Positions 5,436-39,678 of a stretch of DNA of 49,519 nucleotides are shown here, one piece after another (the stretch's first letter is position 1; the number at the start of each line of letters is the position of its first letter). The stretch is taken from positions 1 to 49,519 of the forward strand of contig CALFCF010000033.1 in assembly GCA_937951345.1 (NCBI GenBank), written 5' to 3'. The stretch is from an uncultured Granulosicoccaceae bacterium (lineage in GTDB: Bacteria > Pseudomonadota > Gammaproteobacteria > Granulosicoccales > Granulosicoccaceae). The position numbers and the translations under genes were made by a program. The notes under the pieces were generated by a model. The model did not search any database. It worked only from the letters and a program-made list of their open reading frames with translations, and was not told the DNA's origin.

Positions 5436-5443
5436 GTCGCACG

Positions 5444-9735: not shown

Positions 9736-9771
9736 TTGCCTCAAACTTTATTTGGGCATATTATCCCAAAT
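9736..9771 (+). promoter_or_regulatory. Sigma-70-like promoter overlapped by an operator-like palindrome
   Basis: TTGCCT (9736-9741) and TATTAT (9759-9764) are 17 bp apart and start transcription about 25 bases before the lipoprotein ATG. The -10 box lies inside an inverted repeat with arms TATTTGGG (9749-9756) and CCCAAATA (9765-9772) around 8 bases. A dimer bound there would block polymerase, so repression is the natural reading. Confidence 0.55.
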
Positions 9772-9795
9772 ACAAGTTAACGGCAGAGAAAAACC

Positions 9796-11511: not shown

Positions 11512-11595
11512 CCGGCAAATCATCATCGCTAAAAAGGAAAAATAAAAATAGAAAAGGAATTCAGAGCAACATACCTGTAACGGGTACCGTTGATA

Positions 11596-11650
11596 CCGGT
11601 CTAGACACTTCGCAACGTAACAAATTGCGTTGTGTCGAAGCCGGTTTTTT
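11596..11650 (+). terminator. Rho-independent terminator after the lipoprotein gene
   Basis: CTTCGCAACG pairs with CGTTG and CGAAG, separated by a 3-base bulge, around a short loop. An outer CCGG (11596-11599) pairs with CCGG (11641-11644), which is followed at once by six T residues. It lies about 85 bp past the lipoprotein stop. Confidence 0.75.
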
Positions 11651-11743
11651 ATTTGGCAAACACAGTTTCCAATAGAAACAGTTAGTCGAAACGGTCAAAC
11701 GCCATTCACTTTTTTTAGATGCGAGAGCGTCTGACTCACATTA

Positions 11744-12556: not shown

Positions 12557-12741
12557 AAAATTAAGCGATCACTAGTTGATGCTACCAACCGTTCCACCTC
12601 ATAGAGGCATTTCTCGTTGGTAACGGTGTTATCAAGTCTGTATATTCACACACAGACCAGTATTATTGCAGTGCAGATGCATCGTCTGCTGTAACACCTG
12701 TTGACCCAATAGCCTACTAACCACGTTATCGACAAGCAACC

Positions 12742-13770: not shown

Positions 13771-13785
13771 AAGCCGAACTACGTC

Positions 13786-15351
13786 GTGTCCAACAACACT
13801 CCTCGTCAATCTGAACCCAACCGTCAAAGGCGAAGAAAACGCTCAACACGCAGCCCTGCGGGACTCAATGCGCAAGACACTCCACGTGCACCTTATATAC
13901 ACCGCCGGCTAGGCACCTACAATGTTCTGAATGAAGAAGGGCTGTGCCTGATTGAAGAAAACGCTGATCGCATTCTTCAGGAAACCGGTATGGAATTTCA
14001 TGACGACGATGAAATTCTGATCCTTTTCAAAGAAGCCGGTTGTGATGTGGACGGCACCCGCGTGCGCTTTGCTCCGGGTTTCTGCCGACAGACGATTCAA
14101 CGTACAGCACCTGCCGTGTTTAAACAACACGCTCGTAATCCGGCACACACGGTTCAGCTCGGCGGTGAAGCAAGCGTACTCTGCCCATCCTGGGGACCAC
14201 CTTTTGTTCACGACAACATCGATGGTCGCCGCTACGCGACGTACGATGACTTCACCAAACTAGTGAAGTTACACCACAGCATTCCCTCGTTACATCATTC
14301 CGGTGGAGTGGTTTGCGAACCGGTGGACCTGCCGGCCAACAAGCGTCATCTGGACATGCTGTATGCCCATATTCGCTGGTCTGATCGTGCGTTTATGGGC
14401 GCGTTTATTGGTAGCGAACGCGCATCACATGCGATAGACATGGCGCGTATAGTTTTTGGTGAGCAATACGTTGACGATCACGCTGTGTTGTATTGTGTTT
14501 CCAATACCAATGCACCACTGGTGATGGATGCCAACATGTCCGGCGCACTAAAAACTTACGCACAGGCAGGACAACCGGTCGCCTGCACACCGTGGGTGCT
14601 GACAGGTGCGATGAGCCCGTGCACTGTTGCGGGCACTCTTGCGCAAGTGCTGGCTGAGGCGCTTGCCACATTAACGCTGGTGCAACTGGTCAAACCAGGT
14701 GCTCCCTGTCTGATGGGCAGTTTTGCGTCAACCATGTCGATGCAATCCGGTGCGCCTACGTTTGGCTCACCCGAAGCCGGACAAATGGTTCTGGCAGCAG
14801 GTCAGCTCGCCAGACGACTCGGTGTACCGCTTCATACAGTTGGCACACTGTCAGCCAGCAAGGTAGCTGATGCACAGAGTCAACAGGAAGCTACCTGGGG
14901 ATTATTAATGGCCATGTTTGCCGGAGCCAATTTAATCAACCATGCTACCGGCTGGCTGGAAGGTGGATTAGTGACCAGTTTTGAGAAGACCGTGATCGAC
15001 GCAGACCTGTGCGGCAAGATAGGCCGTTTTTTTGAAGGTATTGATCTAACTGAAAACGCACAGGCAATGAGCGCTATTGCCGCCACCGGACCGGGCCAAC
15101 ACTTCCTTGGTTCAACACATACACAGGACAACTTTCTAACCGCCCTTTTCAGACCGGAGACGGCTGACAATAACTCGTACGAACAGTGGTCAGCTGACGG
15201 TGCGCTGGATGCAACGACTCGCTCTACTCCAATCTGGCAACAAAGACTGGATAATTACCGGGATCCGGGATTGGATCCGGCGATCGATGAAGCATTGCAG
15301 GATTATATCGCCCGACGAAAAGCCGAAAAGCCCGACGTCGATTACTACTGA
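13786..15351 (+). CDS. MttB-family (trimethylamine methyltransferase-like) protein, non-pyrrolysine
   Basis: 521 residues of the MttB superfamily, recognisable by the N-terminal LNEEGLCLIEENADRIL helix, the GxCDV-G--V segment and the glycine-rich TIM-barrel half. The frame is continuous with no in-frame TAG, so it is not a pyrrolysine enzyme. Characterised non-pyrrolysine members demethylate quaternary amines such as glycine betaine, proline betaine or carnitine, passing methyl to a cobalamin protein. No corrinoid protein gene lies in the window. The start is GTG; no in-frame ATG exists before the conserved core. About 45 N-terminal residues are basic and probably disordered. The stop is 8 bases before the first FAD-GcvT gene, so a shared pathway is likely. 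Confidence 0.88.
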   Translation: MSNNTPRQSEPNRQRRRKRSTRSPAGLNAQDTPRAPYIHRRLGTYNVLNEEGLCLIEENADRILQETGMEFHDDDEILILFKEAGCDVDGTRVRFAPGFCRQTIQRTAPAVFKQHARNPAHTVQLGGEASVLCPSWGPPFVHDNIDGRRYATYDDFTKLVKLHHSIPSLHHSGGVVCEPVDLPANKRHLDMLYAHIRWSDRAFMGAFIGSERASHAIDMARIVFGEQYVDDHAVLYCVSNTNAPLVMDANMSGALKTYAQAGQPVACTPWVLTGAMSPCTVAGTLAQVLAEALATLTLVQLVKPGAPCLMGSFASTMSMQSGAPTFGSPEAGQMVLAAGQLARRLGVPLHTVGTLSASKVADAQSQQEATWGLLMAMFAGANLINHATGWLEGGLVTSFEKTVIDADLCGKIGRFFEGIDLTENAQAMSAIAATGPGQHFLGSTHTQDNFLTALFRPETADNNSYEQWSADGALDATTRSTPIWQQRLDNYRDPGLDPAIDEALQDYIARRKAEKPDVDYY

Positions 15352-15359
15352 CAGCGCTT

Positions 15360-17762
15360 ATGGCAAACACGATTATTATCGGCGGTGGCGTGATTGGTCT
15401 TAGCGTTGCGTACCACCTGGCAAAACGCGGACAGACACACATCACCCTGCTGGAACGCAACCAGCTGACATCCGGAACCAGCTGGCATGCGGCGGGTATC
15501 GTTGGCCCCCTGCGTGCCACGCCCAACATGACGCAAATTGCGCGCTACGCATTGGAGTTGTTTCCGCAACTTGAGCAAGAAAGCAAACTCTCGACAGGTT
15601 TTAAAACAACCGGTGGTTATTGGCTGGCGCAACAACCGGAACGACTCGACGAACTACACCGAATAGCTGCACTGGGACGGACGCAGCAGCTAACAGCATC
15701 AGTGATCGGTGCTGACGACATGCAAACAGAGCTACCTTTTCTGCAGTTATCTTCGCACTGCGGTGCGCTTAAAGTCGCCGAAGATGCGAACGTCAACCCG
15801 GTGGATTTATGTATGGCCTACGCGCAGGTTGCCAGACGACTGGGTGTCGACATACATGAAGGGATTGAAGTCACGAAAATTCGTACAACTAACAACAAGG
15901 TAACCGGTGTGTATCTGGCCGATGACTCGCAGCTGGATGCTGAACAGGTCGTTATCTGTTGTGGAGCCTGGTCAAAGCCGCTGGCAGCAACCGCCGGTCT
16001 GGCGCTGCCATTGCAAGCGGTCGAACACATGTACATTGTCACTGAACCGTTGACGGGTATTCCTGAACCGTTTCCAGTAATACGTGATCTGGATAACGGC
16101 ATTTATATAAAAGGTGACACCGGTGGCAAAGTTGTCATGGGCGGGTTTGAAGCCAACGCAAAGTGCTGGAATGCGTTTTCAGAAGAAGGCGACCGTGCGT
16201 TTCTTGAACTACCGGAAGACTGGGAACAATTCAGCGGATTTATGGACGCAGCACTCCGTCTGATGCCGCAGCTGGAAAATGCCGGTGTACAGCGTTTTAT
16301 GAATGGTCCGGAAAGTTTTACCGCTGATACGCGTCCGTTAATTGGTGAAGCACCAGCAACGCGCGGCCTGTACGTTGCCGCAGGAATGAATTCAGTCGGC
16401 GTGATGTCATCAGCCGGTGTCGGTCGGGTACTGGCGGACTGGATTGCCGACGATGCACCACCGATGGATCTTTGGGAAGTCGATATTTCGCGGTGCGACC
16501 CGCGCTGCGCTGAAGATGATCATATGCAGTCTCGTATGCAGGAATCCGTGCATGATCTGTTTGCCATGCACTGGCCGTTTAAGCAACCACAAGCCGGACG
16601 CAATTTACGTCAATCCTGTTTACACAACCGGTGGCAACAACAAGGTGCTGTATTCGGACTGACCGCCGGCTGGGAGCGCGGACTGTGGTACGCAAATCAC
16701 GCAAACGAAAGGCAATTTCCCTACTCCGTGCTCGAACGCCCATGGCAGCAACAAGCACAACGAGAGGCTGCTTTTATGCAAACTGGAACTGTCCTCGTAG
16801 ATCTGACACCGTTCAGCAAATTTGATGTTATAGGAGACGAATCGCTCAACCTACTGCAACAACTGGCGTGCTCATCAATTGATATCCGAACCGGGAAATG
16901 CGTGTACACCGTGTTCCTCAACAAGCGAGGTGGTATTGAAGCCGATGTAACCATCACACGATTGAGTGATCAACATTTTCGTGTCACAGCAAGCGCAGCA
17001 ACGCGCTGGCGCGATCTGTCACTTTTAACAAGAGCGGCGGAATCGCTCTCGGTAACAGTGACCGATGTTACCGAAACCGAAGCAGTGATCGGTGTGATGG
17101 GTCAAGGTTCGCGTCAGCTATTGCAGTCATTAACAACCAACCATCCATTCAGTGAGGCTTACGGCTCTTCTGAATCAATCTCCCTGGATAACATACCCGT
17201 GCGCGCACAACGCACCAGCTTTAGCGGTGAGCTGGGTTGGGAACTCTATATTGCCAATACGGAGGCAGCGGCAATTTTTGATGCATTAATTGATCGTGGT
17301 GCCAAACCCATGGGCCACTATGCGCTCGAGAGTTGCCGGATTGAAAAAGGCTTTCGCCACTGGGGACATGATATCGGACCGGACACCCTGCTGCCCGAGA
17401 CCGGTTTGCCGGTTCGTGTTGACTGGCAAAAGGACTTTAACGGTAAACAGGCACTTGAAAAGTTACAGGTGACCGGTGTCAACCAGAGACTCTGTTTATT
17501 GCAAGTCGACGGTCGCCCGTTAGTGCTGCACGATGAACCGGTGCACGAAGGCAACCAAGTCGTTGGTTTGACAACGTCCGGCACGCAGGGTGTACGCACA
17601 GACCAGACACTGGCATTTGCCTACATAGACATTGCAACCGATGAAACACCGGCGCAGACCGCCGAGCGCCAGCTTCAAATTGAGATCGGTGGTAACAACT
17701 ACCCGGCCACCTGTTTGCTGCGACCGCCTTTTGACCCTGCTGGCAAAAGGATGCGCGCATGA
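15360..17762 (+). CDS. FAD-dependent dehydrogenase-GcvT fusion (dimethylglycine/sarcosine dehydrogenase family)
   Basis: 800 residues. The FAD-binding Rossmann motif GGGVIG is at 8-13. The SWHAAG stretch with His43 matches the histidine that holds FAD covalently in dimethylglycine and sarcosine dehydrogenases. Residues to about 370 form the DAO domain, about 375-430 the middle domain, and about 435-800 the GcvT aminomethyltransferase-like domain that binds tetrahydrofolate. Such enzymes oxidise an N-methyl group and trap the formaldehyde as methylene-tetrahydrofolate. It is 8 bases after the MttB-family gene and overlaps the next paralogue by 4 bases (ATGA). Which N-methyl amine it uses cannot be read from sequence. 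Confidence 0.88.
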   Translation: MANTIIIGGGVIGLSVAYHLAKRGQTHITLLERNQLTSGTSWHAAGIVGPLRATPNMTQIARYALELFPQLEQESKLSTGFKTTGGYWLAQQPERLDELHRIAALGRTQQLTASVIGADDMQTELPFLQLSSHCGALKVAEDANVNPVDLCMAYAQVARRLGVDIHEGIEVTKIRTTNNKVTGVYLADDSQLDAEQVVICCGAWSKPLAATAGLALPLQAVEHMYIVTEPLTGIPEPFPVIRDLDNGIYIKGDTGGKVVMGGFEANAKCWNAFSEEGDRAFLELPEDWEQFSGFMDAALRLMPQLENAGVQRFMNGPESFTADTRPLIGEAPATRGLYVAAGMNSVGVMSSAGVGRVLADWIADDAPPMDLWEVDISRCDPRCAEDDHMQSRMQESVHDLFAMHWPFKQPQAGRNLRQSCLHNRWQQQGAVFGLTAGWERGLWYANHANERQFPYSVLERPWQQQAQREAAFMQTGTVLVDLTPFSKFDVIGDESLNLLQQLACSSIDIRTGKCVYTVFLNKRGGIEADVTITRLSDQHFRVTASAATRWRDLSLLTRAAESLSVTVTDVTETEAVIGVMGQGSRQLLQSLTTNHPFSEAYGSSESISLDNIPVRAQRTSFSGELGWELYIANTEAAAIFDALIDRGAKPMGHYALESCRIEKGFRHWGHDIGPDTLLPETGLPVRVDWQKDFNGKQALEKLQVTGVNQRLCLLQVDGRPLVLHDEPVHEGNQVVGLTTSGTQGVRTDQTLAFAYIDIATDETPAQTAERQLQIEIGGNNYPATCLLRPPFDPAGKRMRA

Positions 17763-20293
17763 TCAATGCACAGGTAGTCATAGTCGGTGGCGGCATCATG
17801 GGCGTGTCACTGCTGTACCACTTAAGCAAAGCCGGTTGGACAGATGTCGTTCTACTTGAGAAAAACGACCTGACGCATGGTTCCACTTGGCACGCTGCCG
17901 GGCTGTGTACTCACTTCGCGCATAACGCCACTATTCAGGCTTTGCGTGCAACGTCAGTTCGTTTGTATCGTGATCAGTTACCGTTCGAGACCGGACAAAG
18001 TTGCGGCTTTCACAAATGTGGTGCCATGCGTGTAACACGCAACCCTGATCGTATGGATGAATTTGCCCACGTCGCCGGTCTGTCGCAATTTACCGGCTAT
18101 GAACTTGAAGTATTAACACCGGAGCGTATTGCCGAATTACACCCGCTTGCAACACTCGATGGATTGCTCGGTGGTATCTATGAACCGGACGACGGGCACG
18201 TTGACCCATCGCTCGCAACACAGGCACTTGCGCAAGGTGCAACCGCAAACGGCGCTACGATCAGGCGGCATACCTGTGTACGCGCAATCCGTCGCGAAGA
18301 TAACCACTGGCTGGTAACTACCGATAACGACACCTACCGTACGGTTCATGTGGTGAATGCAGCCGGCACATGGGGATGGGAAGTGGGGCAAATGATGGGT
18401 GTCAATGTTCCCTCCGTACCCATACTGCATCAATACCTGGTGACAGATACCGTACCTGAAATTGCCCGGCGTATTGACAACAATCTACCTGAACTACCGA
18501 TCATCAGAGATCCCGAAGAAAGCTGGTATGTCCGGCAGGAACGTGACGGATTTATTCTCGGACCCTATGAACGTGATGCCGAACCCTGGTCTGTCGATGG
18601 TGTACCACCTGAGTTCGGAGCAGACTTATTGCCACCGGCGCTCGATCGTGTTGAACCGATTATCGAAGCGGCTATGGCACGCATACCGGCTATCGCATCA
18701 GCCGGAGTTAAAACGGTTATTAACGGACCGATAACATTCTCACCGGATGCTAACCCGTTAATTGGTCCTGCGCACGGTGTTGACAATGCATGGCTACTAA
18801 CCGGCTCATCGATGGGTGTGATGGAAGGTGGTGGTGCAGGCTGGTTTTTAGCTCACTGGATGACACACGGTGCTCCACCGATGGATGCGCTCGCCGTTGA
18901 TAGCCGCCGTTTCGGCGCATGGGCTGACCGCCAATACAGACTCAACAAAGCGGTCGAGTGTTTTGGTTTACAGTTCGGCGTGCACTACCCCTATGAGGAA
19001 CGCCCGGCCGCACGAAACACTCGCCTCTCGCCATTGCACGACCTGATGCTTGAACGCGGTGCAGTGATGGGCGTTGCCTACGGACGTGAGAGACCGAACT
19101 GGTTTTCTGACAAGTCGGGGGATGTGGCTGAACACAGTTTCAGGCGTACGCATTGGTTTGATGCCGTAGCACATGAAGTAAACCACGTCAGTAAACGTGT
19201 TTCACTGGCTGATTTATCTGTGTTGTCCAAATTCAGTGTCGCAGGACCTGACGCGGATGCGTTTGTAAAGACTCTTGGCGCAAATACGGCACCTTCACCG
19301 GGACGCATCAATCTGACCTATGCATTAACACCTGCAGGTGGCGTCGCTTCAGAATTTTCAGTTGCACATATTTCTAATACTAAAGAGGTGCCGTTTTACT
19401 TTTTGACTTCCGCAGCGGCGGCTGAACAAATGGATTGGGATTTATTACAGGCACATGCCCAACAGCATGACGTGCAACTCGTCAACCATACGGATGACTG
19501 GGCGAGCATCGCGTTAATGGGGCCGCATGCAACCGATGCGATCGCGCAACTCGACGGCGCGGGCAGTTTGCTAGTCAGTGATTGGTTATCGGCACAGACC
19601 GTGACGTTAAACGGAATACCAACCGTTGCCTTACGCGTTTCGTACATCGGTGAAAACGGTTGGGAGTTACACGTGCCAGCCGATCAGGCAGTCGCGCTGT
19701 TCCAGATGCTTGAAACTGCAGGCAAGGCTTTTGATGTCGGTTACTACGGCGCGTTCGCCGCCAACAGTATGCGTCTCGAGAAAGGCTACCGGGCCTGGGG
19801 CATGGACTTAACCACAGAACGCTCACCGCTGGAGTCAGGCTTGAGTCGCTTTGTTAAGTTAGAAAAACATAAAGGTAAAAAACAAAAAGATGACACCCTC
19901 TCACCGGACATCCGCGACTTTACCGGCAATGTAAGCATGTTGGAGCGTCAGCGAACATCCGTCTGGTGTATGGTTTTACTGGAAATTAAAAATGACAGCA
20001 CCGATCCGGTGGATCCGTTTTACGCCCATCCGGTTTTTTTCAACAACGACGTTGCAGGTATCGTGACCTCCGGCGCCTACGGACATCGCATCGGAAAAAC
20101 ACTGGCGCTAGCGTACCTTAACAATGCAGATATACATCAACAGGTTGTAAGCGGCAAACCGATAGACGGCAGGCTGGAAATCAGTATCCTCGGTACACGT
20201 CACGACGCCGTCATACTTGACAACGTGCCGTATGACCCTGACAACCGGTTAATGCAAACGCACACAAAAACGGAATCGATAAATGACGAATAA
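17759..20293 (+). CDS. Second FAD-dependent dehydrogenase-GcvT fusion
   Basis: 844 residues with the same domain order as the preceding paralogue: GGGIMG at 10-15, a GSTWHAAGLC stretch with His45 as the likely FAD ligand, then a DAO domain, a middle domain and a GcvT domain. The two copies are clearly diverged, so they probably act on different methylated amines in sequence, for example dimethylglycine then sarcosine; this is inference. A Lys-rich stretch (KHKGKKQKDD) at about 702-711 lies in the GcvT half and is not seen in the first copy. It starts inside the previous stop and overlaps the aminotransferase gene by 11 bases, so translation is tightly coupled. Confidence 0.88.
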   Translation: MINAQVVIVGGGIMGVSLLYHLSKAGWTDVVLLEKNDLTHGSTWHAAGLCTHFAHNATIQALRATSVRLYRDQLPFETGQSCGFHKCGAMRVTRNPDRMDEFAHVAGLSQFTGYELEVLTPERIAELHPLATLDGLLGGIYEPDDGHVDPSLATQALAQGATANGATIRRHTCVRAIRREDNHWLVTTDNDTYRTVHVVNAAGTWGWEVGQMMGVNVPSVPILHQYLVTDTVPEIARRIDNNLPELPIIRDPEESWYVRQERDGFILGPYERDAEPWSVDGVPPEFGADLLPPALDRVEPIIEAAMARIPAIASAGVKTVINGPITFSPDANPLIGPAHGVDNAWLLTGSSMGVMEGGGAGWFLAHWMTHGAPPMDALAVDSRRFGAWADRQYRLNKAVECFGLQFGVHYPYEERPAARNTRLSPLHDLMLERGAVMGVAYGRERPNWFSDKSGDVAEHSFRRTHWFDAVAHEVNHVSKRVSLADLSVLSKFSVAGPDADAFVKTLGANTAPSPGRINLTYALTPAGGVASEFSVAHISNTKEVPFYFLTSAAAAEQMDWDLLQAHAQQHDVQLVNHTDDWASIALMGPHATDAIAQLDGAGSLLVSDWLSAQTVTLNGIPTVALRVSYIGENGWELHVPADQAVALFQMLETAGKAFDVGYYGAFAANSMRLEKGYRAWGMDLTTERSPLESGLSRFVKLEKHKGKKQKDDTLSPDIRDFTGNVSMLERQRTSVWCMVLLEIKNDSTDPVDPFYAHPVFFNNDVAGIVTSGAYGHRIGKTLALAYLNNADIHQQVVSGKPIDGRLEISILGTRHDAVILDNVPYDPDNRLMQTHTKTESINDE

Positions 20294-21602
20294 GCAGGAA
20301 CATCCGCCTTTGCCTGTCGACTGGTCAGTCAATTCCACTGCCGACAGACGCGATAGATTCTATGCAGCGTCGCAAAGTAAATTTGTCCCGTTCAAAGAAC
20401 CCATTGTTTTTAAGCGCGGTTCCATGCAATACCTGTGGGATGCAGAGGACAACAAGTACATTGATTTATTGGGTATGAACGTCTGTATTTCTGTCGGTCA
20501 CTCACATCCGGTAGTTGTCGCTGCAGCAACTGAACAGGCACAGGCACTAACCCATTGCACCACCATGTTCTACCACCCGGTACCCGCACATCTGGCAGAA
20601 GAACTCGCCGCCACCATGCCCGAAGGACACGACTGGGTTGTGCACTTCACCAATTCCGGCGCCGAGGCGATTGACCTGGCGATGACCATGGCACGCACCT
20701 ACACCGGCAACCTCGACATACTGGCATTACGTACCGCATACCACGGACCCACCGCAGCCGCGCAATCGATTACCGGCATTTCAACCTGGCGTCACCCCGG
20801 TATGCCGGGCAACGTTGCCTTTGTTGCGGAACCGAATCAGTATCGCGGCATCTTCGGCCCGGGTACGGAACCCTATCTGGATGAAATCGAACGAACTATC
20901 GCAACATCTACCAACGGGCAGATTGCCGGTATGTTTGTCGAGAGTGTACAAGGCTACGGTGGCATTATTGAAATGCCACCGGGGTACATGAAAGGCGCAG
21001 CCGAACGTGTGCGAGCCGCCGGTGGACTGTATGTCGCTGATGAAGTGCAATCCGGTTTTGGCAGAACCGGTGACAATATGTGGGGATTTGAGGCGGACGG
21101 TGTTGTCCCTGATATCGTCGTAATGGCAAAGGGTATTGGAAACGGTTTTCCACTCGGTGCGGTTGTTGCCAAAAAATCGGTTGCCGCACCCATGGCCGAA
21201 CGCTTTCTCTTCCATACTTACGGCGCCAATCCGACCAGCTGCGCAGCCGGGCGCGCAGTACTGCAGGTTATACGTGAAGACAAGGTGCAGCAAAACGCAA
21301 AGGAAGTCGGTGCAGACTTACTTGCACGCTTGAACGAACTCAAAACCAAACATATGGCAATCGGTGATGTGCGCGGACGCGGGTTGATGCTCGCCATTGA
21401 GCTGGTCAAAGACAGAAAAAGCAAAGAACCCGATCGCGAAACCACTGCTGCCGTATTCGAACATTGCCGCACACAGGGTTTAATACTTTCCAAATCCGGC
21501 CCGACACAATCCTGTTTACGAATGGTGCCACCAATGTGCCTGTCACTGAAAGATGTCGAGCAGGTGGCCGAAGGCCTGGATGCCGCTTTCTCAAACCTCT
21601 AG
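20283..21602 (+). CDS. Class III PLP-dependent aminotransferase (AGXT2-like)
   Basis: 439 residues, the fold type I class III family. The PLP lysine is Lys283 in VMAKGIGNGFPLG and the ring-nitrogen aspartate is Asp253 in VADEVQSGFGRTG. The overall pattern is close to alanine-glyoxylate aminotransferase 2, whose members use alanine, beta-alanine, beta-aminoisobutyrate or dimethylarginine with glyoxylate or pyruvate. Ending a demethylation run, it could turn the released amino acid or glyoxylate over. A link to beta-aminoisobutyrate would also fit mmsAB elsewhere in the window, but they are 24 kb away. It overlaps the preceding gene by 11 bases. No signal peptide. Confidence 0.88.
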   Translation: MTNKQEHPPLPVDWSVNSTADRRDRFYAASQSKFVPFKEPIVFKRGSMQYLWDAEDNKYIDLLGMNVCISVGHSHPVVVAAATEQAQALTHCTTMFYHPVPAHLAEELAATMPEGHDWVVHFTNSGAEAIDLAMTMARTYTGNLDILALRTAYHGPTAAAQSITGISTWRHPGMPGNVAFVAEPNQYRGIFGPGTEPYLDEIERTIATSTNGQIAGMFVESVQGYGGIIEMPPGYMKGAAERVRAAGGLYVADEVQSGFGRTGDNMWGFEADGVVPDIVVMAKGIGNGFPLGAVVAKKSVAAPMAERFLFHTYGANPTSCAAGRAVLQVIREDKVQQNAKEVGADLLARLNELKTKHMAIGDVRGRGLMLAIELVKDRKSKEPDRETTAAVFEHCRTQGLILSKSGPTQSCLRMVPPMCLSLKDVEQVAEGLDAAFSNL

Positions 21603-24702: not shown

Positions 24703-25767
24703 ATGCGTCCACACCACCTGAACAAGATTCTTGAGCGCGAGTTTACCAGCGTCGAACAAGGTAATCATACGCCGGTGATGATATGGGGTCCGCCAGGTGT
24801 GGGTAAATCGCAAATGGTGGCACAGGTGGCAGAGCGCTACGCTGTACCACTACTCGATATCCGCTTATCGCAGATGGAACCGAGCGATCTACGCGGCATC
24901 CCATTCCGGGTTGGGGGTGGTTCTGGTGGTACAGATGCAGGTGTCGAATGGGCCGTACCGCGTATGTTGCCGGATGCTGATCGTCACGGACAATCAGGCA
25001 TTCTGTTTCTGGATGAAATCACCTCGGCATCCCCTGCTGTGTCAGCTGCCGCCTATCAGTTAATACTGGACCGTTGCCTGGGTGACTATGTTATTCCGGG
25101 CGGTTGGGTTATTTTCGCTGCCGGTAACCGCCAGGGTGATCGCGGTGTGACCTATTCCATGCCAACACCCCTGGCTAATCGCTTCACCCACTTTGATATC
25201 GACGTCAACATGGATGACTGGGTACAGTGGGCACATCAGCATGCGATTGATGATCGTGTCATCGCGTTTTTGCGTTTCCGCCCGGAATTACTATTCGACT
25301 TTGATCCGTCACAACACCCGGTGGCTTTTCCGACACCGCGCTCGTGGGAGTTTGCACATCACGCACTGAAGAAGTTTGATGATCAACCGCAAATCAGAAC
25401 GGCAGCACTACAAGCTTGCGTTGGCAAAGCAGCCGGTGTTGAGTTGAATGCATTTATAGATAATCTGCAGAATATGCCGGACATCAATGCCATACTGGCA
25501 GGAAACGACGTACCGGTTCCTGAATCCGTTGATCTGCAATACGCAGTTGCATCATCACTCGTCGGGCATGCCACTCGCGCCAAAGGTACCGATAACGCTG
25601 CCACCACGATTGGCAACATACTCGATTATGCGTCGCAATTCCCGCAAAAAGAGATGGGTGTCATGCTGGTCTCGGACATGCACCGTGCGGTCGGCAGTGA
25701 ACTCTTTAACGTACCGCAGTTCAATGATTGGGCGACACGTATGGCTGATGTCATGTTGTATGAATAG
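24703..25767 (+). CDS. MoxR-family AAA+ ATPase
   Basis: 354 residues. Walker A is GPPGVGKS at 29-36 and Walker B is ILFLDEIT with Asp104-Glu105. An N-rich sensor stretch (AAGNRQGDRG) follows at about 140. MoxR ATPases act as chaperones with a VWA partner to mature metalloenzymes or complexes; the partner is the next gene, 69 bp downstream. The pair is 1.7 kb upstream of aprMBA in the same direction, so a role in assembling or maintaining APS reductase is possible but only contextual. Cytosolic. The start ATG lies 82 bp from the divergent PdxA-family gene. Confidence 0.88.
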   Translation: MRPHHLNKILEREFTSVEQGNHTPVMIWGPPGVGKSQMVAQVAERYAVPLLDIRLSQMEPSDLRGIPFRVGGGSGGTDAGVEWAVPRMLPDADRHGQSGILFLDEITSASPAVSAAAYQLILDRCLGDYVIPGGWVIFAAGNRQGDRGVTYSMPTPLANRFTHFDIDVNMDDWVQWAHQHAIDDRVIAFLRFRPELLFDFDPSQHPVAFPTPRSWEFAHHALKKFDDQPQIRTAALQACVGKAAGVELNAFIDNLQNMPDINAILAGNDVPVPESVDLQYAVASSLVGHATRAKGTDNAATTIGNILDYASQFPQKEMGVMLVSDMHRAVGSELFNVPQFNDWATRMADVMLYE

Positions 25768-25836
25768 CAGGAGGTCAACCAGGTGTTCGACTCGCATCGC
25801 TGCCAGCAATGAAACGATTAGGCTTCCAGCAGCGCT

Positions 25837-27063
25837 ATGACAGATACCGACCTTGCTGATTCCAACGATCCGGTATTGAACAAGCTGGCTGCGGCGCGCA
25901 CACGCCTGATTCTTGATAAACCGTTTCTGGGTGCGCTGGTGTTGCGCCTGCCGTTGCGTGAAGCAAGTGCTGAGTGGTGCTCGACCACGGCGACCGATGC
26001 GCGGGAAGTTTATTTTAACCGTAGCTATATCGAGCAACTTCGACTCGGCCAGGTGCAATACGTTCTTGCGCACGAAGCGCTGCATTGCGCACTGTCTCAT
26101 TTTTCACGCCGTCAACACCGTCACCGGCAACGCTGGGATATAGCCTGCGATTATGCGGTGAATATGCTTCTGGCACCCGATGATCTGGACCTACCGGATG
26201 GTGTGTTAATCGACAATAAGTATGAAGGTATGACGGCGGAGGAAATTTACCCGTGCCTTGACGACGACGATGATCAGGAGCCTCTGGACCAACACATCTA
26301 CGACGGCTTACCAAAAGATTCAAACGATGAAGATAAATCAGATGAAGACACAATAGAAACTGCATCAACGCAACGTTCAGCAAGCGCTAACGCATCACCA
26401 TCACCGTCGCCACCACCATTAACCGATACCGAACGCGATGAATTGCAAACACGCTGGCAGCAATATCTGGCAAGCGCTGCGCAGCAAGCAACACAAGCGG
26501 GTAAGTTGAATAGTTCGGCAGCGCGCATCATTGAGCGTCTGTTACGACCGGCTCTACCATGGCGAACATTGCTCGCTCACTATATGAACAGCACAGCCCG
26601 CACAGATTACAATCTGATGCGTCCTTCGCAACGACGCACGGGTGAAGCAATCATGCCCAGCCTGCACACTCGCCAGATTGATGTGGTGGTCGCGATGGAT
26701 ACCAGCGGCTCGATCAAACAGGAAGAACTCAACAGCTTTGTTGCAGAAATCAACGCCATCAAGGGTTCGATTAATGCGCGCATCACATTGATCGCCTGTG
26801 ATGCGGAAATCGATAGTAACGGACCGTGGGTATTTGAAACCTGGGAGTCGCTCCATCTGCCGGACAATCTGGCCGGTGGAGGCGGCACAAACTTCAGACC
26901 GGTATTTGACTGGCTGACCGACAATCACCAGCAACCGGATTTACTGATCTATTTCACCGACGCCAAAGGCATCTACCCTGAAACCGAACCTGTCGTGCAA
27001 ACACTGTGGTTGGTTAAAGGCAAGGCCGATATACCCTGGGGTCAGCGTATTCAGCTCAACTAG
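25837..27063 (+). CDS. VWA-like protein with an N-terminal metallopeptidase-like domain (DUF2201 type)
   Basis: 408 residues. The N-terminal half carries HExxH at His79-Glu-Ala-Leu-His83 with a downstream Asp at 101, the pattern of the predicted metallopeptidase domain found ahead of this VWA type. A low-complexity Asp/Ser/Pro linker runs from about 141 to 195. The C-terminal half is a VWA domain with an intact MIDAS start, Asp288-x-Ser290-x-Ser292. It pairs with the MoxR ATPase just upstream, as in other MoxR-VWA sets. Whether it actually cleaves peptides is untested. No transmembrane segment is seen, unlike many BatA-type VWA proteins. Confidence 0.85.
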   Translation: MTDTDLADSNDPVLNKLAAARTRLILDKPFLGALVLRLPLREASAEWCSTTATDAREVYFNRSYIEQLRLGQVQYVLAHEALHCALSHFSRRQHRHRQRWDIACDYAVNMLLAPDDLDLPDGVLIDNKYEGMTAEEIYPCLDDDDDQEPLDQHIYDGLPKDSNDEDKSDEDTIETASTQRSASANASPSPSPPPLTDTERDELQTRWQQYLASAAQQATQAGKLNSSAARIIERLLRPALPWRTLLAHYMNSTARTDYNLMRPSQRRTGEAIMPSLHTRQIDVVVAMDTSGSIKQEELNSFVAEINAIKGSINARITLIACDAEIDSNGPWVFETWESLHLPDNLAGGGGTNFRPVFDWLTDNHQQPDLLIYFTDAKGIYPETEPVVQTLWLVKGKADIPWGQRIQLN

Positions 27064-27500: not shown

Positions 27501-28349
27501 ATGCTAATTAATAACCCGTTTGCAGCACTTTCGATACCGTCTGGCGTTATGCAGATGTACGTGGTGCTGATGATTCTGCTTGTCATCGGCGGAACGCTTC
27601 TCGATATCAAACACAAACGCAGTGCGGAATACTTTTTCCAGAATTCCAAAAAAGCACAGGCTAACGCTAAAAAGAAAGCCGGTAGCGGGAAAAAGGTGGG
27701 ACTTGCAGTTAAGACGGTGGCTGGTGAAGTACTGACATCATCTGAGTTCTGCAATGTACGCCGCCGACAGTCGCACCTGCTGACCATGTACGGGTTTATT
27801 ATCTTTGTCGTGACATCTGCGATTCTTATCTTTTCCTACACCGGCGGTGATGCAAGTTCACCGATTTTGCTCAACATGCTATGGCACATTGGTGCAATTA
27901 TGTTGTGCGTCGGCGGATACTGGTTCTGGTTCAAGATCCGGGTTGACGTTGCTGCCGAAGGTGTAAAGTGGAACCAGTTCAACGGCCGCGGTGACTTCTT
28001 CATTCTCGGTTTGTTATCCATGGCAACGTTTGGTTTGATCTGGTCATTCTTCCAGGGAATCGGTGTGACCGTATTGTCAGTACTATTTTTTGCGCTCTTT
28101 ATAGCCAGCACCACAATGCTGTTCGGCACGGTTTACTGGTCGAAGTTTGCCCACATGTTTTTCAAACCGGCTGCCGCGTATCAAAAGAAAGTCGCCATGG
28201 CTGATGGATCACGGGAAAACCTGCCTGACGACTATGACCTTTCCAGTCCGGAAGTGCAGGCCAAATTCCCGGATATCCCCGAATACCTCGGTGCTAATCC
28301 ACCGAACATGGGACTCGGTATAAAACGCGAAGCCCCTCAACACTATTAA
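27501..28349 (+). CDS. aprM: APS reductase membrane anchor AprM
   Basis: 282 residues with about five hydrophobic segments (16-35, 92-113, 121-143, 165-186, 189-213). Its place directly before aprB and aprA, and its overall pattern, match AprM of sulphur-oxidising bacteria, which tethers the AprBA enzyme to the membrane and is thought to pass electrons from sulfite oxidation to the quinone pool. The start is ATG at 27501, set by GGAGG about 11 bases upstream; an ATG 36 bases earlier lacks a ribosome site. The tail after residue 215 is soluble and Pro-rich. AprB follows after 27 bases. Sulfate reducers use QmoABC instead, so aprM favours the oxidative direction. Confidence 0.92.
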   Translation: MLINNPFAALSIPSGVMQMYVVLMILLVIGGTLLDIKHKRSAEYFFQNSKKAQANAKKKAGSGKKVGLAVKTVAGEVLTSSEFCNVRRRQSHLLTMYGFIIFVVTSAILIFSYTGGDASSPILLNMLWHIGAIMLCVGGYWFWFKIRVDVAAEGVKWNQFNGRGDFFILGLLSMATFGLIWSFFQGIGVTVLSVLFFALFIASTTMLFGTVYWSKFAHMFFKPAAAYQKKVAMADGSRENLPDDYDLSSPEVQAKFPDIPEYLGANPPNMGLGIKREAPQHY

Positions 28350-28376
28350 TCGATTGCACAGTCCGGAGAGAACACT

Positions 28377-28859
28377 ATGCCAACTTTCGTATATATGACC
28401 CGTTGTGACGGGTGCGGTCACTGCGTCGATATCTGCCCGTCAGACATCATGCATATCGATAAAGACACACGACGTGCCTATAACATCGAGCCCAACATGT
28501 GCTGGGAATGTTATTCATGCGTTAAAGCCTGCCCGCATCAGGCGATCGATGTGCGTGGCTACGCTGATTTTGCACCACTTGGCCATTCGGTCCGTGTAAA
28601 GCGTGACGAAGAAAAGGGCGTTATCGCGTGGCGCATCAAATTCCGTAACGGCAAAAAAGACATGGACCTGCTTGCCCCTATCACGACCAAACCCTGGGGA
28701 AGTGCCACTCCTCAACTGCGTGATGCAGAGCCTCCAACGCAGGAACAGCGTGACAGTCAGTTGCTGTTTAACGAGCCTAAGTACATTCGTTTTGATGAAG
28801 GCGATATACACACGTTCGAAAGCAATGGCCTGGAGATGAGACAAGGAGTCGATTACTGA
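28377..28859 (+). CDS. aprB: Adenylylsulfate reductase beta subunit AprB
   Basis: 160 residues, the ferredoxin-like iron-sulphur subunit. Two 4Fe-4S sets are present: Cys10-x2-Cys13-x2-Cys16-x3-Cys20 and Cys42-x2-Cys45-x2-Cys48-x3-Cys52. They carry electrons between the FAD of AprA and the membrane partner. The tail beyond residue 60 wraps the alpha subunit in known structures. GGAGA precedes the ATG. The stop codon overlaps the aprA start by one base (TGATG), so the two are made together. Length is normal. Confidence 0.95.
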   Translation: MPTFVYMTRCDGCGHCVDICPSDIMHIDKDTRRAYNIEPNMCWECYSCVKACPHQAIDVRGYADFAPLGHSVRVKRDEEKGVIAWRIKFRNGKKDMDLLAPITTKPWGSATPQLRDAEPPTQEQRDSQLLFNEPKYIRFDEGDIHTFESNGLEMRQGVDY

Positions 28860-30754
28860 TGAAATTCGACACGATCGTTGAAGAAGACATAGACATCCTT
28901 GTCTGCGGTGCCGGATTAGGCGGTACCGGTGCAGCGTTTGAAGCGCGCTATTGGGGACAGGATAAGAAAATCGTTATTGCCGAGAAGGCAAACATTGACC
29001 GCTCGGGTGCTGTTGCGCAGGGCCTATATGCGATCAACTGTTACATGGGTACCCGCTTCGGCGAGAACAACCCGGAAGATCACGTGCGTTATGCACGTAT
29101 TGATCTGATGGGCATGGTGCGCGAAGACCTGCTGTTTGACATGGCTCGCCATGTTGACTCCACAGTGCACCAGTTTGAAGAATGGGGTCTACCGCTAATG
29201 CGTAACCCCAAGACCGGCACCTATCAACGTGAAGGTCGCTGGCAGATCATGATTCACGGTGAATCCTATAAGCCGATTGTTGCTGACGCTGCGAAGAAAT
29301 CTGCAGACAAGGTGTTCAACCGTATCTGTGTTACCCATCTGCTGATGGATGATGCAAAGGAAAACCGCGTTGCCGGAGCTGTCGGATTTAATGTCCGAAC
29401 CGGTAACTATCACGTATTTAAATCGAAGGCTGTTATTGTTGCCGCCGGCGGCGCATCGAATATCTACAAGCCGCGTTCGGTCGGTGAAGGCGCAGGACGC
29501 GTATGGTACGCACCCTGGTCATCCGGCTCGGCTTATGGTCTGTTGATCGGCGCTGGCGCCAAGATGACGCAGATGGAAAACCGAATCGTTTTAGCGCGTT
29601 TTAAAGACGGCTACGGCCCGGTGGGTGCGTACTTCCTCCACCTGAAAACCTATACGCAAAACGGCTTGGGTGAAGAGTACGAATCGCGCTGGTGGCCATC
29701 GCTTCAGGAAATTGTCGGCAAAGAGTACCTTGATCCGGAACTTTCACACCGCACACACCGTCCGATCCCGACCTGCCTGCGTAACCACGCGTTTATTCAG
29801 GAAGTGAATGCCGGACGTGGTCCGATTCACATGGTTACTATGGAAGCATTCCAGGATCCGCACCTTGAGGAAATCGGCTGGCACAATTTCCTGGGTATGA
29901 CTGTGGGTCAGGCGGTACTTTGGGCGGCAACTGATGTCGATCCGAAATATGAGAACCCCGAACTGACGACATCTGAACCCTATGTTATGGGCTCACACGC
30001 AACCGGTTGTGGTGCCTGGTGCTCAGGCCCGGAAGATCTGTCGCCTCCTGAGTACTATTGGGGATACAACCGGATGACTACAGTCGAAGGACTGTTCGGT
30101 GCTGGTGATGCTGTGGGTGGTACACCGCACGCGTTCTCATCTGGCTCGTTCACCGAAGGGAGACTTGCTGCGAAAGCTGCCTGTCGCTACATCGATGATG
30201 GTAAAGCCGACGGCATCAAAGTATCTGAAGAACAGATCAACCGTCGCAAAGAAGAAATCTACAAACCGATGGAGACCTACCGTGTGTTCCGAAACGAGAT
30301 CACAGCCGGTTCGGTCAACCCGAACTATATCAACCCGCGTCAGGCCCTCGACCGTCTGCAAAAGTTGATGGATGAGTACGTCGGTGGTGTAACGGTCAAC
30401 TACATGACCAATGAAAAGTTACTGAACATTGGCCTGAAGAAACTGAAGACCCTGCAAGAAGATCTCGAGAAGATCGCCGCTGACAACATTCACGAGTTGT
30501 TGCGTGCCTGGGAGGTCAAACACCGTACGATGACGTCTGAGTCGGTTATTCAGCACACCCTGTTCCGCAAGGAAACTCGTTGGCCCGGTTACTACTACCG
30601 CGGTGATTTCCTTAAAGTGGATGATGCGAACTGGCACGTACTAACGGTCTCACGCCGTGACCCGGAAACCGGTGAGTACACCATGGAAAAAGCACCTTGC
30701 TACCACCTTGTTGAAGTTGACAAGGATAAGGACAAGGAATCAGCCGTCGCCTAA
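28859..30754 (+). CDS. aprA: Adenylylsulfate reductase alpha subunit AprA
   Basis: 631 residues, the FAD subunit that interconverts AMP plus sulfite and adenosine 5'-phosphosulfate. The dinucleotide-binding GAGLGG is at 17-22, followed by an RSGAVAQGLYAINCYMG active-site block near 48-64. Known Apr landmarks such as FKDGYGPVGAYFLHLK and GSHATGCGAWCSG are intact. With AprM instead of Qmo, it fits reverse (sulfite-oxidising) use in sulphur oxidation or organosulfonate catabolism. No sat (ATP sulfurylase) gene lies in the window. A strong terminator closes the operon 32 bp after the stop. No frameshift or missing core segment is seen. Confidence 0.96.
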   Translation: MKFDTIVEEDIDILVCGAGLGGTGAAFEARYWGQDKKIVIAEKANIDRSGAVAQGLYAINCYMGTRFGENNPEDHVRYARIDLMGMVREDLLFDMARHVDSTVHQFEEWGLPLMRNPKTGTYQREGRWQIMIHGESYKPIVADAAKKSADKVFNRICVTHLLMDDAKENRVAGAVGFNVRTGNYHVFKSKAVIVAAGGASNIYKPRSVGEGAGRVWYAPWSSGSAYGLLIGAGAKMTQMENRIVLARFKDGYGPVGAYFLHLKTYTQNGLGEEYESRWWPSLQEIVGKEYLDPELSHRTHRPIPTCLRNHAFIQEVNAGRGPIHMVTMEAFQDPHLEEIGWHNFLGMTVGQAVLWAATDVDPKYENPELTTSEPYVMGSHATGCGAWCSGPEDLSPPEYYWGYNRMTTVEGLFGAGDAVGGTPHAFSSGSFTEGRLAAKAACRYIDDGKADGIKVSEEQINRRKEEIYKPMETYRVFRNEITAGSVNPNYINPRQALDRLQKLMDEYVGGVTVNYMTNEKLLNIGLKKLKTLQEDLEKIAADNIHELLRAWEVKHRTMTSESVIQHTLFRKETRWPGYYYRGDFLKVDDANWHVLTVSRRDPETGEYTMEKAPCYHLVEVDKDKDKESAVA

Positions 30755-30785
30755 TATCCGGCAGCTCCTTCCATGCGTATAAACG

Positions 30786-30833
30786 GCCGCCGTGCATCTG
30801 CAATCAATGCAGCAGCACGGCGGCTTCTTTATT
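30786..30833 (+). terminator. Rho-independent terminator after aprA
   Basis: A perfect 10-bp stem GCCGCCGTGC (30786-30795) / GCACGGCGGC (30815-30824) encloses a second 5-bp stem CTGCA-atcaa-TGCAG and is followed by a T-rich tail (TTCTTTATTT). It is the clearest terminator in the window. Confidence 0.9.
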
Positions 30834-30900: not shown

Positions 30901-31254
30901 ATGAATATCATAGAGCAGTCTGACGACGACCTTCTGGCTATCGCCAATCCGATGTGGGACGACTTGATCCGTTATTCCAATGAAGGAGAATACGGCAAGT
31001 TTATCCGCCATTTCTCTTACGATCTGCTGTTCGGTTTAAATGAGGTGGAAATAGGCAAACAGTTCGCGAAAAGCGAGCTCACGCGCAACCTTGACCCCAA
31101 TTACGATGTGCTTGGTCTTATTCGTCGCAATGAGCACGTGACCGTGCTCTATCGGGTACGCAGCACCCAAAGAGACGGTGAATGGCTCGGTCGCATGGTG
31201 TTGGGCTACGACAAAGAACAGGAAGTAAAGATATTCGGAGCTTCCATTTTCTAG
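30901..31254 (+). CDS. Hypothetical 117-residue protein, possibly NTF2-like
   Basis: I do not recognise this protein. It is cytosolic-looking and mixed alpha/beta: a helical, acidic first third, then strands with VLYRVRSTQRDGEWLGRMVLGYD. The size and the helix-then-curved-sheet order recall NTF2/SnoaL-like folds, but no catalytic residues stand out. It is the first gene after the aprA terminator, 67 bp on, in the same direction as the SlyD-like and helical-repeat genes. No clear ribosome site precedes the ATG. A role tied to sulphur metabolism is only suggested by position. Confidence 0.7.
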   Translation: MNIIEQSDDDLLAIANPMWDDLIRYSNEGEYGKFIRHFSYDLLFGLNEVEIGKQFAKSELTRNLDPNYDVLGLIRRNEHVTVLYRVRSTQRDGEWLGRMVLGYDKEQEVKIFGASIF

Positions 31255-31327: not shown

Positions 31328-31861
31328 ATGAACGACCCTCAAATGGAAGATCCGATCGAAGACGGTAAGCTCGTAGAACTGACCTACAAAGTAATCGATG
31401 TCAAAACACGCAGCACGCTGACCGAGGTTGAATACCCGATTGGCTATGTGCACGGGGTTAACGAAATCCTTGCGCCTCAGGTCACAGCCGAGCTCGTTGG
31501 CAAACTACCGGGTGATGTAATAGAGGTGCCGATCGACTGTAATGAGTTGTTCGGGGAACGCGATGAATCGCTGGTGGTTACAGACCTGATCGAGAACGTA
31601 CCTGAGGAATACCGTGAAGTCGGCACATCGATTCTGATGGAAAATGATCAGGGCGATACCAAAACGTTTCTGGTTACCAGGGTCGACGAAAAAACGGTCA
31701 CTATTGATGGTAACAATCCGCTTTGCGGTCGTGAAGTTATCTTCAGGCTACAAATACTAACTGTCCGTGATGCAACACCGGAAGAGCTCGAGCACGGAGG
31801 GCCGATCGAAGCGAGCATCAGCGACGTGGTCGGATCTGATCAGACTGTACGACCGGTTTGA
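31328..31861 (+). CDS. SlyD-like FKBP-type peptidyl-prolyl isomerase, possibly chaperone-only
   Basis: 177 residues. The N-terminal and C-terminal parts form the split FKBP domain, with an insert-in-flap region between about 75 and 120. The end NPLCGREVIFRLQILTVRDATPEELEHGG matches the SlyD ending closely. The His/Cys-rich nickel-binding tail of E. coli SlyD is missing. The segment where SlyD has its GxxxDxS-pattern active-site Asp reads TRSTLTEVEYP here, so prolyl isomerase activity may be lost while the chaperone insert remains. It sits 73 bp after the 117-residue gene. It may fold or protect a client encoded nearby. Confidence 0.8.
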   Translation: MNDPQMEDPIEDGKLVELTYKVIDVKTRSTLTEVEYPIGYVHGVNEILAPQVTAELVGKLPGDVIEVPIDCNELFGERDESLVVTDLIENVPEEYREVGTSILMENDQGDTKTFLVTRVDEKTVTIDGNNPLCGREVIFRLQILTVRDATPEELEHGGPIEASISDVVGSDQTVRPV

Positions 31862-38176: not shown

Positions 38177-38563
38177 TTAATCGTTCGCACCAACCGAAAG
38201 GGACCTGCTGCGCTCGGCAGTGCGTCTCGCAAGCAGTACCCCAAGCAGCAGGAGAAACGTCAGCATCAACCCCATACCTTCACGGACCGGCTCGATATTC
38301 CACCAGACTTCCTGGCGCCACCATCCGGGCTCCCGTGGCCAGTAGTAGACCACGAGAAATCCGGCTATTACCAGGCTAAACATAAACAGGACACGTGCGG
38401 TCGAGCGAAGAAGTAGCCGTGGCCGTATCGCTGCTATCGCGCACCAGAGCATCGCGCCAGCGTACACCACTGCCCAGTACACGCCGTCCGGATCATTCAT
38501 TTGAACACAGCAAAACCCCAGCAACATCAGTGCTGCGAAACCATTGAAAATGCGTGAAAACAT
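38177..38563 (-). CDS. TMEM220-like small membrane protein
   Basis: About 128 residues with four hydrophobic segments. The VQMNDPDGVYWAVVYAG block between the first two helices is the TMEM220 family hallmark. No function is known for the family. Translation is placed at MFSRIFNG (ATG 38563) because GAAGGGAA lies about 11 bases upstream; an earlier ATG at 38599 would add 12 polar residues. The 5' end is only about 69 bp from the divergent eboA start as given. Confidence 0.75.
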   Translation of the reverse strand: MFSRIFNGFAALMLLGFCCVQMNDPDGVYWAVVYAGAMLWCAIAAIRPRLLLRSTARVLFMFSLVIAGFLVVYYWPREPGWWRQEVWWNIEPVREGMGLMLTFLLLLGVLLARRTAERSRSLSVGAND

Positions 38564-38631
38564 CACAGTCGAATTCCCTTCAGGTGTTTGACCGTACAAC
38601 CGGGCAGAAGCATAGAACTAACAACGACAGC

Positions 38632-39678
38632 ATGTTCTTTGCCAGTGAGTACGCAGTGGCGAACTATACTCTGATGAATATCGGCAAAACCTGTAAATTA
38701 CTGTCAATGGATCGTTGTTTATCCCAGTATCCCACTGCACCTGAGAGCTCCGATCAAGCGCTGAAGAATGACTTTCAGACCGCGATCAGTGCGCTTGACG
38801 GCTGGATAACCCAACGACTGACAGCGCAAGACAATCGCTGGCTACAGGCATCTATTGATGACCTGCTAACGGACTACTCCGACAAACAGTTATATATCGC
38901 ACTCGGCAGGATTCCGCGTGTAATCGGTCGGCATGATTTTAATCTGTCAGCACAGGAAATTGAGCAGGCGGATTCACTTCGGCCGGGCTGGTACCCCGCA
39001 CGCTGGACTTTAGCAGGTGCTGCACGGACCGTGTTACTTGCGAAACTCAGCCACGCTGATCGACACCGGATGGATGACATCTACCCATCGCTGTGCCGCA
39101 CAGCGGACTACAACGAGTTAATCGATCTGTACTCGTCGTTGTCGGTTATTTCGCCCAGCGAAAAGTTAACAACGCAGGCAGCTGATGGCCTCCGAACCAA
39201 CACCCGCGCCGTTTTTGAGTCAATAGCACACCACAACCCCTACCCTGCAGAAAATTTTGATGAGCAACGCTGGAACCATATGGTATTAAAAGCGCTGTTT
39301 ATTGACAGCACGCTCGGCCCGATAATTGGTCTTGATTCGCGCAGGAATAAAAACCTGGCCGACATGCTTTACGACTACGCCAAAGAACGACGAGCCGCAG
39401 GACGCACAGTCAGTGCAGAGCTCTGGCGCTGTGTCGGTCCGTTTGCAACCGGTGAACTGTTGAGCGAACTTACCCGGGTGTTGCGATCTGATAACAACAA
39501 CGAACAAATGGCAGCGGCACTTGCAGTATCAGAAAGCCCGGATCAGCATGCGTCCGAAATTTTGTCAAGCGCTCCCGAAATCGCCGAGTCGATTAGCTCC
39601 GGCAAACTGCAATGGCAATTTGATAAAGATTTGCCAGTACTTAACGAAACCACGATACAGGCAGGTTGTCAGTCATGA
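38632..39678 (+). CDS. eboA: EboA-family protein
   Basis: About 348 residues. The second half carries the recognisable EboA stretch: GLRTNTRAVFESIAHHNPYPAENFDE, then MVLKALF, GLDSRRNKNLADMLYDYAKERRAAGR and ELWRCVG. EboA is a helical protein of unknown biochemical role, first gene of the ebo (EDB) clusters. In cyanobacteria the cluster is needed to move a scytonemin precursor to the periplasm, and it also occurs in other bacteria. The start is uncertain: ATG 38632, ATG 38674 and GTG 38554 all lack a clear ribosome site, and 38554 would overlap the divergent TMEM220-like gene. The stop overlaps eboB by ATGA. Confidence 0.88.
   Translation: MFFASEYAVANYTLMNIGKTCKLLSMDRCLSQYPTAPESSDQALKNDFQTAISALDGWITQRLTAQDNRWLQASIDDLLTDYSDKQLYIALGRIPRVIGRHDFNLSAQEIEQADSLRPGWYPARWTLAGAARTVLLAKLSHADRHRMDDIYPSLCRTADYNELIDLYSSLSVISPSEKLTTQAADGLRTNTRAVFESIAHHNPYPAENFDEQRWNHMVLKALFIDSTLGPIIGLDSRRNKNLADMLYDYAKERRAAGRTVSAELWRCVGPFATGELLSELTRVLRSDNNNEQMAAALAVSESPDQHASEILSSAPEIAESISSGKLQWQFDKDLPVLNETTIQAGCQS

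Follow-up and report, generated by a model that had tools for sequence, protein, structure and literature searches.

Lineage I of the sulfur-oxidising bacteria (SOB) has been described by two features of its dissimilatory adenosine 5'-phosphosulfate (APS) reductase, namely an aprM gene ahead of aprB and an AprB subunit free of the loop after Cys-13 that has been tied to Qmo docking (PMC2211403). Allochromatium vinosum and other Chromatiaceae of this lineage combine AprMBA with the sulfate adenylyltransferase Sat. APS reductase has also been connected with organosulfonates. For 'Candidatus Taurinisymbion ianthellae' a route from taurine through Tpa, Xsc, AprAB and Sat was described, with evidence from proteomics, in which Sat itself was not detected, and from sulfate release; no sulfite dehydrogenase was found in its metagenome-assembled genome (MAG) (PMC10356861). 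The same paper names SAR11, the gamma 3 symbiont of Olavius algarvensis and two sponge symbionts as Apr-using taurine degraders and gives most SAR11 as being without ATP sulfurylase (PMC10356861). Here we describe an aprMBA operon from an uncultured Granulosicoccaceae bacterium (assembly GCA_937951345.1), located on a stretch of 49,519 nucleotides (contig CALFCF010000033.1, here C33) which was analysed at its full length and is called the window below. An initial annotation had proposed that this enzyme may serve sulfite released from organosulfonates rather than lithotrophy. We regard it as reasonably probable that the organism is a heterotroph without detected Dsr or SoxB which uses AprMBA and Sat on sulfite in the cytoplasm, a large part of which probably derives from sulfonates. 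The pathway type is already published and the genome is a further member.

The three genes are intact open reading frames on the plus strand between positions 27501 and 30754, and the ATG of aprA overlaps the stop codon of aprB by one base. Their products AprB and AprA reached 211.8 and 1106.2 bits with the NCBIfam models TIGR02060 and TIGR02061, respectively (cut-offs 135.65 and 641.75). Residues 10-619 of AprA align almost end to end to the solved enzyme 1jnr (640 bits), and this alignment covers the N-terminal glycine-rich stretch at position 17. AprB carries eight cluster cysteines (positions 10, 13, 16, 20, 42, 45, 48 and 52), which include all four residues listed as ligands of cluster I in SOB lineage I, Cys20, Cys42, Cys45 and Cys48 (PMC2211403), and it lacks the loop between Cys-13 and Gly-19 that is present in 1jnr_B. 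In its gene order as well as in the loop and cysteines of AprB the operon is of the AprM type (SOB lineage I). Moreover, of 90 homologous loci, three of which duplicate others in the set, 85 have aprM ahead of aprB; in each of the remaining 5 the available stretch ends at aprB. The initial annotation had described intact genes with cluster motifs and a strong terminator, and both descriptions were borne out. The hairpin behind aprA has a folding z of -6.6 and none of 200 shuffles was as stable, although a consensus terminator scan did not list it among its sites (4 found, 4.0 expected). A promoter scan found 4 sites where 4.4 were expected.

To place the operon among its relatives we used an AprA tree and a survey of 48 genomes of the order, all of which belong to one family (Granulosicoccaceae); absences in this survey were called from drafts and its p values are indicative, as the genomes are related. 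The AprA of the window shares 89-92% identity with records whose titles name Chromatiaceae members. In the tree (one gene, 93 rows, eight duplicates dropped, quick search without bootstrap, all rows being best matches of the window AprA) it falls into a clade of 23 with an SH-aLRT of 99. This clade holds 21 family rows from 20 genomes and two MAGs titled only Gammaproteobacteria; several near relatives are titled Granulosicoccaceae. Placing AprA in the Apr phylogeny, as the initial annotation had suggested, thus yielded a family clade which adjoins Chromatiaceae rows, in a set of best matches with no known lineage II row for contrast. The record of the O. algarvensis gamma 3 symbiont also contains an aprMBA locus (L036) with an AprA 87% identical to ours, but this AprA is found in a different part of the tree.

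Within the clade Dsr-bearing and Dsr-free relatives are mixed, with 6 changes of the Dsr state and 8 of the SoxB state among the 21 family rows. These changes are not a count of losses, since the one-gene AprA tree is not a species tree; even G004, a genome of the same genus, is not the nearest row. The mixture suggests that the apr genes of the window look like the sulfur-oxidiser type and not like a separate sulfonate type. Because the clade of this one gammaproteobacterial family includes Dsr-bearing members, the operon was probably inherited from a sulfur-oxidising ancestor. The AprA of G027, the nearest row, is cut off by the end of its contig, and only its residues 1-445 could be compared, with 97.5% identity to the window AprA. 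For the AprM and AprB of G027 the identities are 78% and 91%, similar to those of other relatives. A recent transfer is therefore not claimed. One further genome, G014, has two full-length aprA genes on contigs C191 and C255 which are not sisters in the tree.

According to the initial annotation there was no sat in view. This is correct for the window, in which the genome's own sat, xsc and cysI have no match, but it failed as a hint, since sat is present elsewhere in the genome. The draft (4.49 Mb in 115 contigs, 95.5% complete) contains a single Sat match of 397 aa on contig C7. The closest solved relatives of this protein are the sulfate adenylyltransferases 4dnx (594 bits) and 1jhd (589 bits), both of which we take to come from sulfur oxidisers, and the next one follows at 233 bits. 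In kind this Sat matches those of sulfur oxidisers, and it is similar to that of the Chromatiaceae systems; its presence rules out that Apr yields APS as a dead end for want of sat.

An unlinked sat is no peculiarity of this genome. In Thiocapsa marina and others sat and aprMBA are likewise unlinked (PMC3779200). On a single contig and less than 4 kb apart, sat and aprA were found in at least 7 of the 21 apr-bearing genomes of the order (G004, G005, G014, G027, G032, G040 and G042), contig ends making this a lower bound. Similarly, the available stretch included sat in 32 of 80 named loci; among the 41 named aprMBA loci covered to about 8 kb on either flank, sat was in view in 21. In G004 a sat gene 76% identical to ours lies near aprM and divergent from it, and its aprA is followed by counterparts of the three genes behind the aprA of the window. 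The position of sat outside the window is therefore uninformative, because sat occurs elsewhere in the genome and is often unlinked both in the order and in published cases. All 21 Apr-positive genomes encode some type of Sat. Scores and frame lengths were used to separate a lower-scoring short kind, to which the Sat of the window genome belongs, from a long kind with higher scores in seven genomes; G016, whose frame is long but whose score is low, was kept with the short kind. The short kind was found in 20/21 Apr-positive but in only 5/27 Apr-negative genomes (Fisher p = 6e-8).

Unlike the Chromatiaceae systems, the genome has no detected dsrAB, soxB or RuBisCO. With PF01077 and a DsrB model no dsrAB was found genome-wide, an absence that is not final in a draft of this completeness. 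The single PF01077 protein (563 aa, two half-matches) is a CysI-like sulfite reductase, and the best score with the DsrB model was 25.6 bits, with no match from the window. Genome-wide searches found neither soxB, the one sox gene searched for, nor the RuBisCO large subunit. These results fit the initial annotation, which had seen no dsr genes near the operon and had named sox genes as a further check. It had also held that a full dsr and sat set elsewhere would make the organism an ordinary sulfur oxidiser; one half of that set, sat, was found and the other, dsr, was not. A methanogen-type HdrB model, used as a rough proxy for an Hdr-like sulfur pathway, gave one match of 33 bits. This match was rejected as a sign of such a pathway, as the protein is GlcF (580 bits) beside GlcD. 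The respective genes form a glcDEF-like glycolate oxidase cluster on contig C95 (L111:2841-7296), with GlcF above its cut-off and GlcD just below its own. RuBisCO was also discarded as a discriminator, with matches in 9/48 genomes which include only 2 of the 14 DsrB genomes (G003 and G042).

Since neither dsrAB nor soxB is detectable, the enzyme would serve sulfite from other reactions. Checking the genome for sulfonate-lyase genes, another proposal of the initial annotation, revealed a full-score Xsc on contig C48 (1020 bits, cut-off 676.4), thus on a different contig from apr. A second Xsc-like protein on contig C82 scored 394 bits with the same model and was not counted as Xsc. We infer the direction of the reaction, the path of the electrons, the source of the sulfite and the physiological role of the operon as follows. 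Cleavage of sulfoacetaldehyde, formed from taurine or isethionate, by Xsc would be the best-supported source of sulfite. AprBA would convert sulfite and AMP to APS, and the two electrons released would pass via the AprB clusters to AprM and on to the quinone pool. The separately encoded Sat would finally turn APS and pyrophosphate into ATP and sulfate. For enzymes of this kind both reactions, with the release of two electrons in the first, have been published. 'Candidatus Taurinisymbion ianthellae' is likewise a gammaproteobacterium with Xsc, APS reductase and Sat, but it has QmoAB with HdrBC (PMC10356861), whereas our genome has AprM and sulfite-oxidase-like genes. Counterparts of its tpa and tauABC genes were not identified near xsc in our genome, where no genome-wide search was made for them.

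The same combination of genes recurs in the family. Ten of the 21 Apr genomes are without DsrB (G000, G004, G007, G009, G010, G015, G017, G018, G039 and G041). Apr without both DsrB and SoxB was observed in 7/48 genomes, all of which have Xsc except G010 (77% complete), and four of the seven are more than 90% complete (G000, G004, G009 and G015). Kelp-associated Granulosicoccus MAGs were described as heterotrophs, with sox genes in 5/8 and sulfide oxidation in 0/8 (PMC9238374).

Several observations weigh against the explanation given here. Across the 48 genomes aprA was found in 21 (20 above the cut-off and G010, in which the gene is split), Sat in 32, and DsrB, Xsc and SoxB above their cut-offs in 14, 41 and 27, respectively. 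DsrB was present in 11/21 Apr-positive vs 3/27 Apr-negative genomes (p = 0.003). Xsc was not enriched with Apr (18/21 vs 23/27), which rules out their co-occurrence as evidence for the sulfonate idea, and SoxB was not associated with Apr either (11/21 vs 16/27). As dsr is enriched with Apr and xsc is not, Apr in this family rather follows inorganic sulfur oxidation. Besides, soxB and dsrB share a contig in G003, G013 and G032, so that one missed island could explain both absences in our genome. Taurine regulators (TauR) belong to the MocR/GntR type, and a regulator of this type lies upstream of xsc on the same strand. It need not be a taurine regulator, because it passes the curated cut-off of the pyridoxine regulator PdxR (345 vs 320 bits). 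The same neighbourhood includes a polyamine-type ABC transporter, a hydroxyacid-dehydrogenase-like protein and an aquaporin. No Tpa, taurine transporter, taurine or isethionate dehydrogenase, Pta or sulfide:quinone reductase was named in the scan of proteins around xsc, and none of these was searched for genome-wide.

Finally, Apr may not be the only outlet for sulfite. On contig C15 a TauE/SafE-type gene (PF01925, 123.5 bits), a putative exporter gene, directly precedes a sulfite-oxidase-like gene (L121:5499-7521), and a second such gene is found on contig C18 (L122:6232-7404) beside tripartite-transporter-like genes. The two predicted molybdenum enzymes belong by sequence to the fold family of sulfite oxidase and scored 220 and 185 bits against a SorA cut-off of 600; they are far below the SorT and SoxC cut-offs as well. 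By eye neither N-terminus has a signal peptide, and their substrate is uncertain. A third PF00174 match, on contig C83, is MsrP. The claim that Apr serves organosulfonate sulfite is thus in agreement with the missing dsrAB and soxB and with a full-score xsc, but a dedication of Apr to this sulfite is unproven because xsc occurs as often without Apr as with it and because there are other possible exits for sulfite. The sulfonate idea came through the test that the initial annotation had set for it and is plausible, though not proven.

These points bear on three other explanations. Sulfide:quinone reductase with persulfide dioxygenase, and partial Sox systems, are common in heterotrophs, and Apr and Sat could be fed mainly by inorganic or thiol sulfur through such routes, with sulfonates in a minor part. 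The lack of enrichment of xsc with Apr would agree with such a feed. We nevertheless consider it rather unlikely, as the genome has no SoxB, no HdrB-like protein except GlcF, and a full-score Xsc that would release sulfite.

It is unlikely, too, that we are dealing with an ordinary sulfur oxidiser and that its dsr/sox island escaped the draft assembly. The shared contigs mentioned above and the tracking of Dsr by Apr in the family speak for it, as does G003 of the same genus (84% complete), which has both soxB and dsrB but no aprA above the cut-off. A comparison of the soxB/dsr surroundings of G003, G013 and G032, disregarding dsr-operon and sox genes, found no common outer flank in the stretches examined that could anchor an empty site. 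However, the double absence recurs in G004 of the same genus (91% complete) and in G009 (92%) and G015 (91%), and the AprA tree requires the repeated changes of Dsr and SoxB state given above. That Apr is a vestige, with sulfite mainly exported by the TauE-like protein or oxidised by the sulfite-oxidase-like enzymes, is suggested by the gene pair on C15 and the second gene on C18 but is very improbable, given an intact and conserved aprMBA, a Sat in every Apr-positive genome and the low scores of both molybdenum enzymes.

With use of AprMBA and Sat on cytoplasmic sulfite as the preferred reading, the role of AprM deserves attention. In an earlier study AprM was reported to resemble neither known domains nor known cofactor sites (PMC3779200). 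In our analysis AprM matched the C-terminal membrane part of QmoC with E = 3.3e-12 (46.5 bits, far below the cut-off of 300) and, weakly, also the membrane module of TcuB. The QmoC match was found at 1e-5 in 44/52 AprM proteins. In a limited literature search we found no printed mention of this similarity. His38, His92 and His218 are invariant in 75/75 AprM sequences, and His129 is conserved in 71/75. An AlphaFold model of AprM had a mean pLDDT of 84.8 (74.9-79.4 for the other four models), and its best structural match was NarI of nitrate reductase (3egw_C, Z 10.3 over 172 residues, 5.3 A root-mean-square deviation). EtfD was listed with Z 10.1, and b6f, bc1 and Dcytb were further cytochrome b rows; the list also contains apparently unrelated TRPV channels, chemoreceptor domains and designed proteins, with Z values of 7 to 8.8. 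Foldseek alone gave no significant match (best E 0.26). No entry titled Qmo was listed in the fold comparison, which is evidence neither way. A solved-structure match to the AprM sequence, b-iTHR-110 (E 0.047), covers a short repeat only and was rejected as a relative.

The conserved histidines would allow a predicted haem b site. From the order of the helices His38, His92 and His218 would face the cytoplasm and His129 the opposite side, which makes one haem likelier than two. A more far-reaching proposal is that the family has repeatedly uncoupled the last, sulfite-oxidising part of sulfur lithotrophy from Dsr and Sox and retained it to respire organosulfonate sulfite, with AprM as more than an anchor, namely as a QmoC-related, NarI-like haem b quinone reductase, and AprMBA as a minimal Qmo-free sulfite:quinone oxidoreductase that yields ATP via Sat. 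We put this forward tentatively and consider it doubtful as a whole. What accepts the electrons of lineage I APS reductases is called unknown in PMC2211403; should AprM prove to be a quinone reductase with haem b, the identity of this acceptor becomes testable.

The features of the operon and of its downstream neighbours are collected in the table.

Table. Coordinates in the window of the aprMBA operon, its probable terminator and the genes that follow.
Feature	Position	Strand	Description
aprM	27501-28349	+	Membrane partner of APS reductase (282 aa) with five hydrophobic segments
aprB	28377-28859	+	160 aa, beta subunit with two [4Fe-4S] clusters; TIGR02060, eight cysteines
aprA	28859-30754	+	631 aa, FAD alpha subunit of dissimilatory APS reductase; TIGR02061, 1jnr alignment, tree
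Hairpin followed by T-rich stretch	30785-30825	+	Probable intrinsic terminator of the operon
117-aa protein, no family match	30901-31254	+	Conserved downstream neighbour; same order in G004 (same genus), 76% identity
FKBP-like peptidyl-prolyl isomerase	31328-31861	+	Conserved downstream neighbour; PRK10737 60.6 bits, below cut-off of 174; 80% identical neighbour in G004

Directly upstream of aprM a MoxR-like AAA ATPase is followed by a DUF2201 VWA/metallopeptidase-like protein (24703-27063). Further upstream, a region of genes for organic solutes (4146-21602) encodes a tripartite ATP-independent periplasmic (TRAP) transporter, a hydantoinase/caprolactamase-like pair, an MttB-family-like methyltransferase, two GcvT/sarcosine-oxidase-like fusions and a class III aminotransferase-like protein. 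Leaving aside the TRAP permease, no protein of this region passes the equivalog or subfamily cut-off of its best match, and this holds for the class III aminotransferase-like protein too. At 38554-39678 an EboA-domain protein scored 157 bits, above the domain cut-off of 50 but short of the subfamily cut-off of 320, and is part of a possible ebo metabolite-traffic cluster.

Taken as an oxidiser of cytoplasmic sulfite, the organism brings a gammaproteobacterial family in which Dsr-bearing members occur alongside apparently Dsr-free ones into the small published group of possible Apr oxidisers of sulfonate sulfite. It is also a caution that apr genes alone are no marker of sulfur lithotrophy in surveys.

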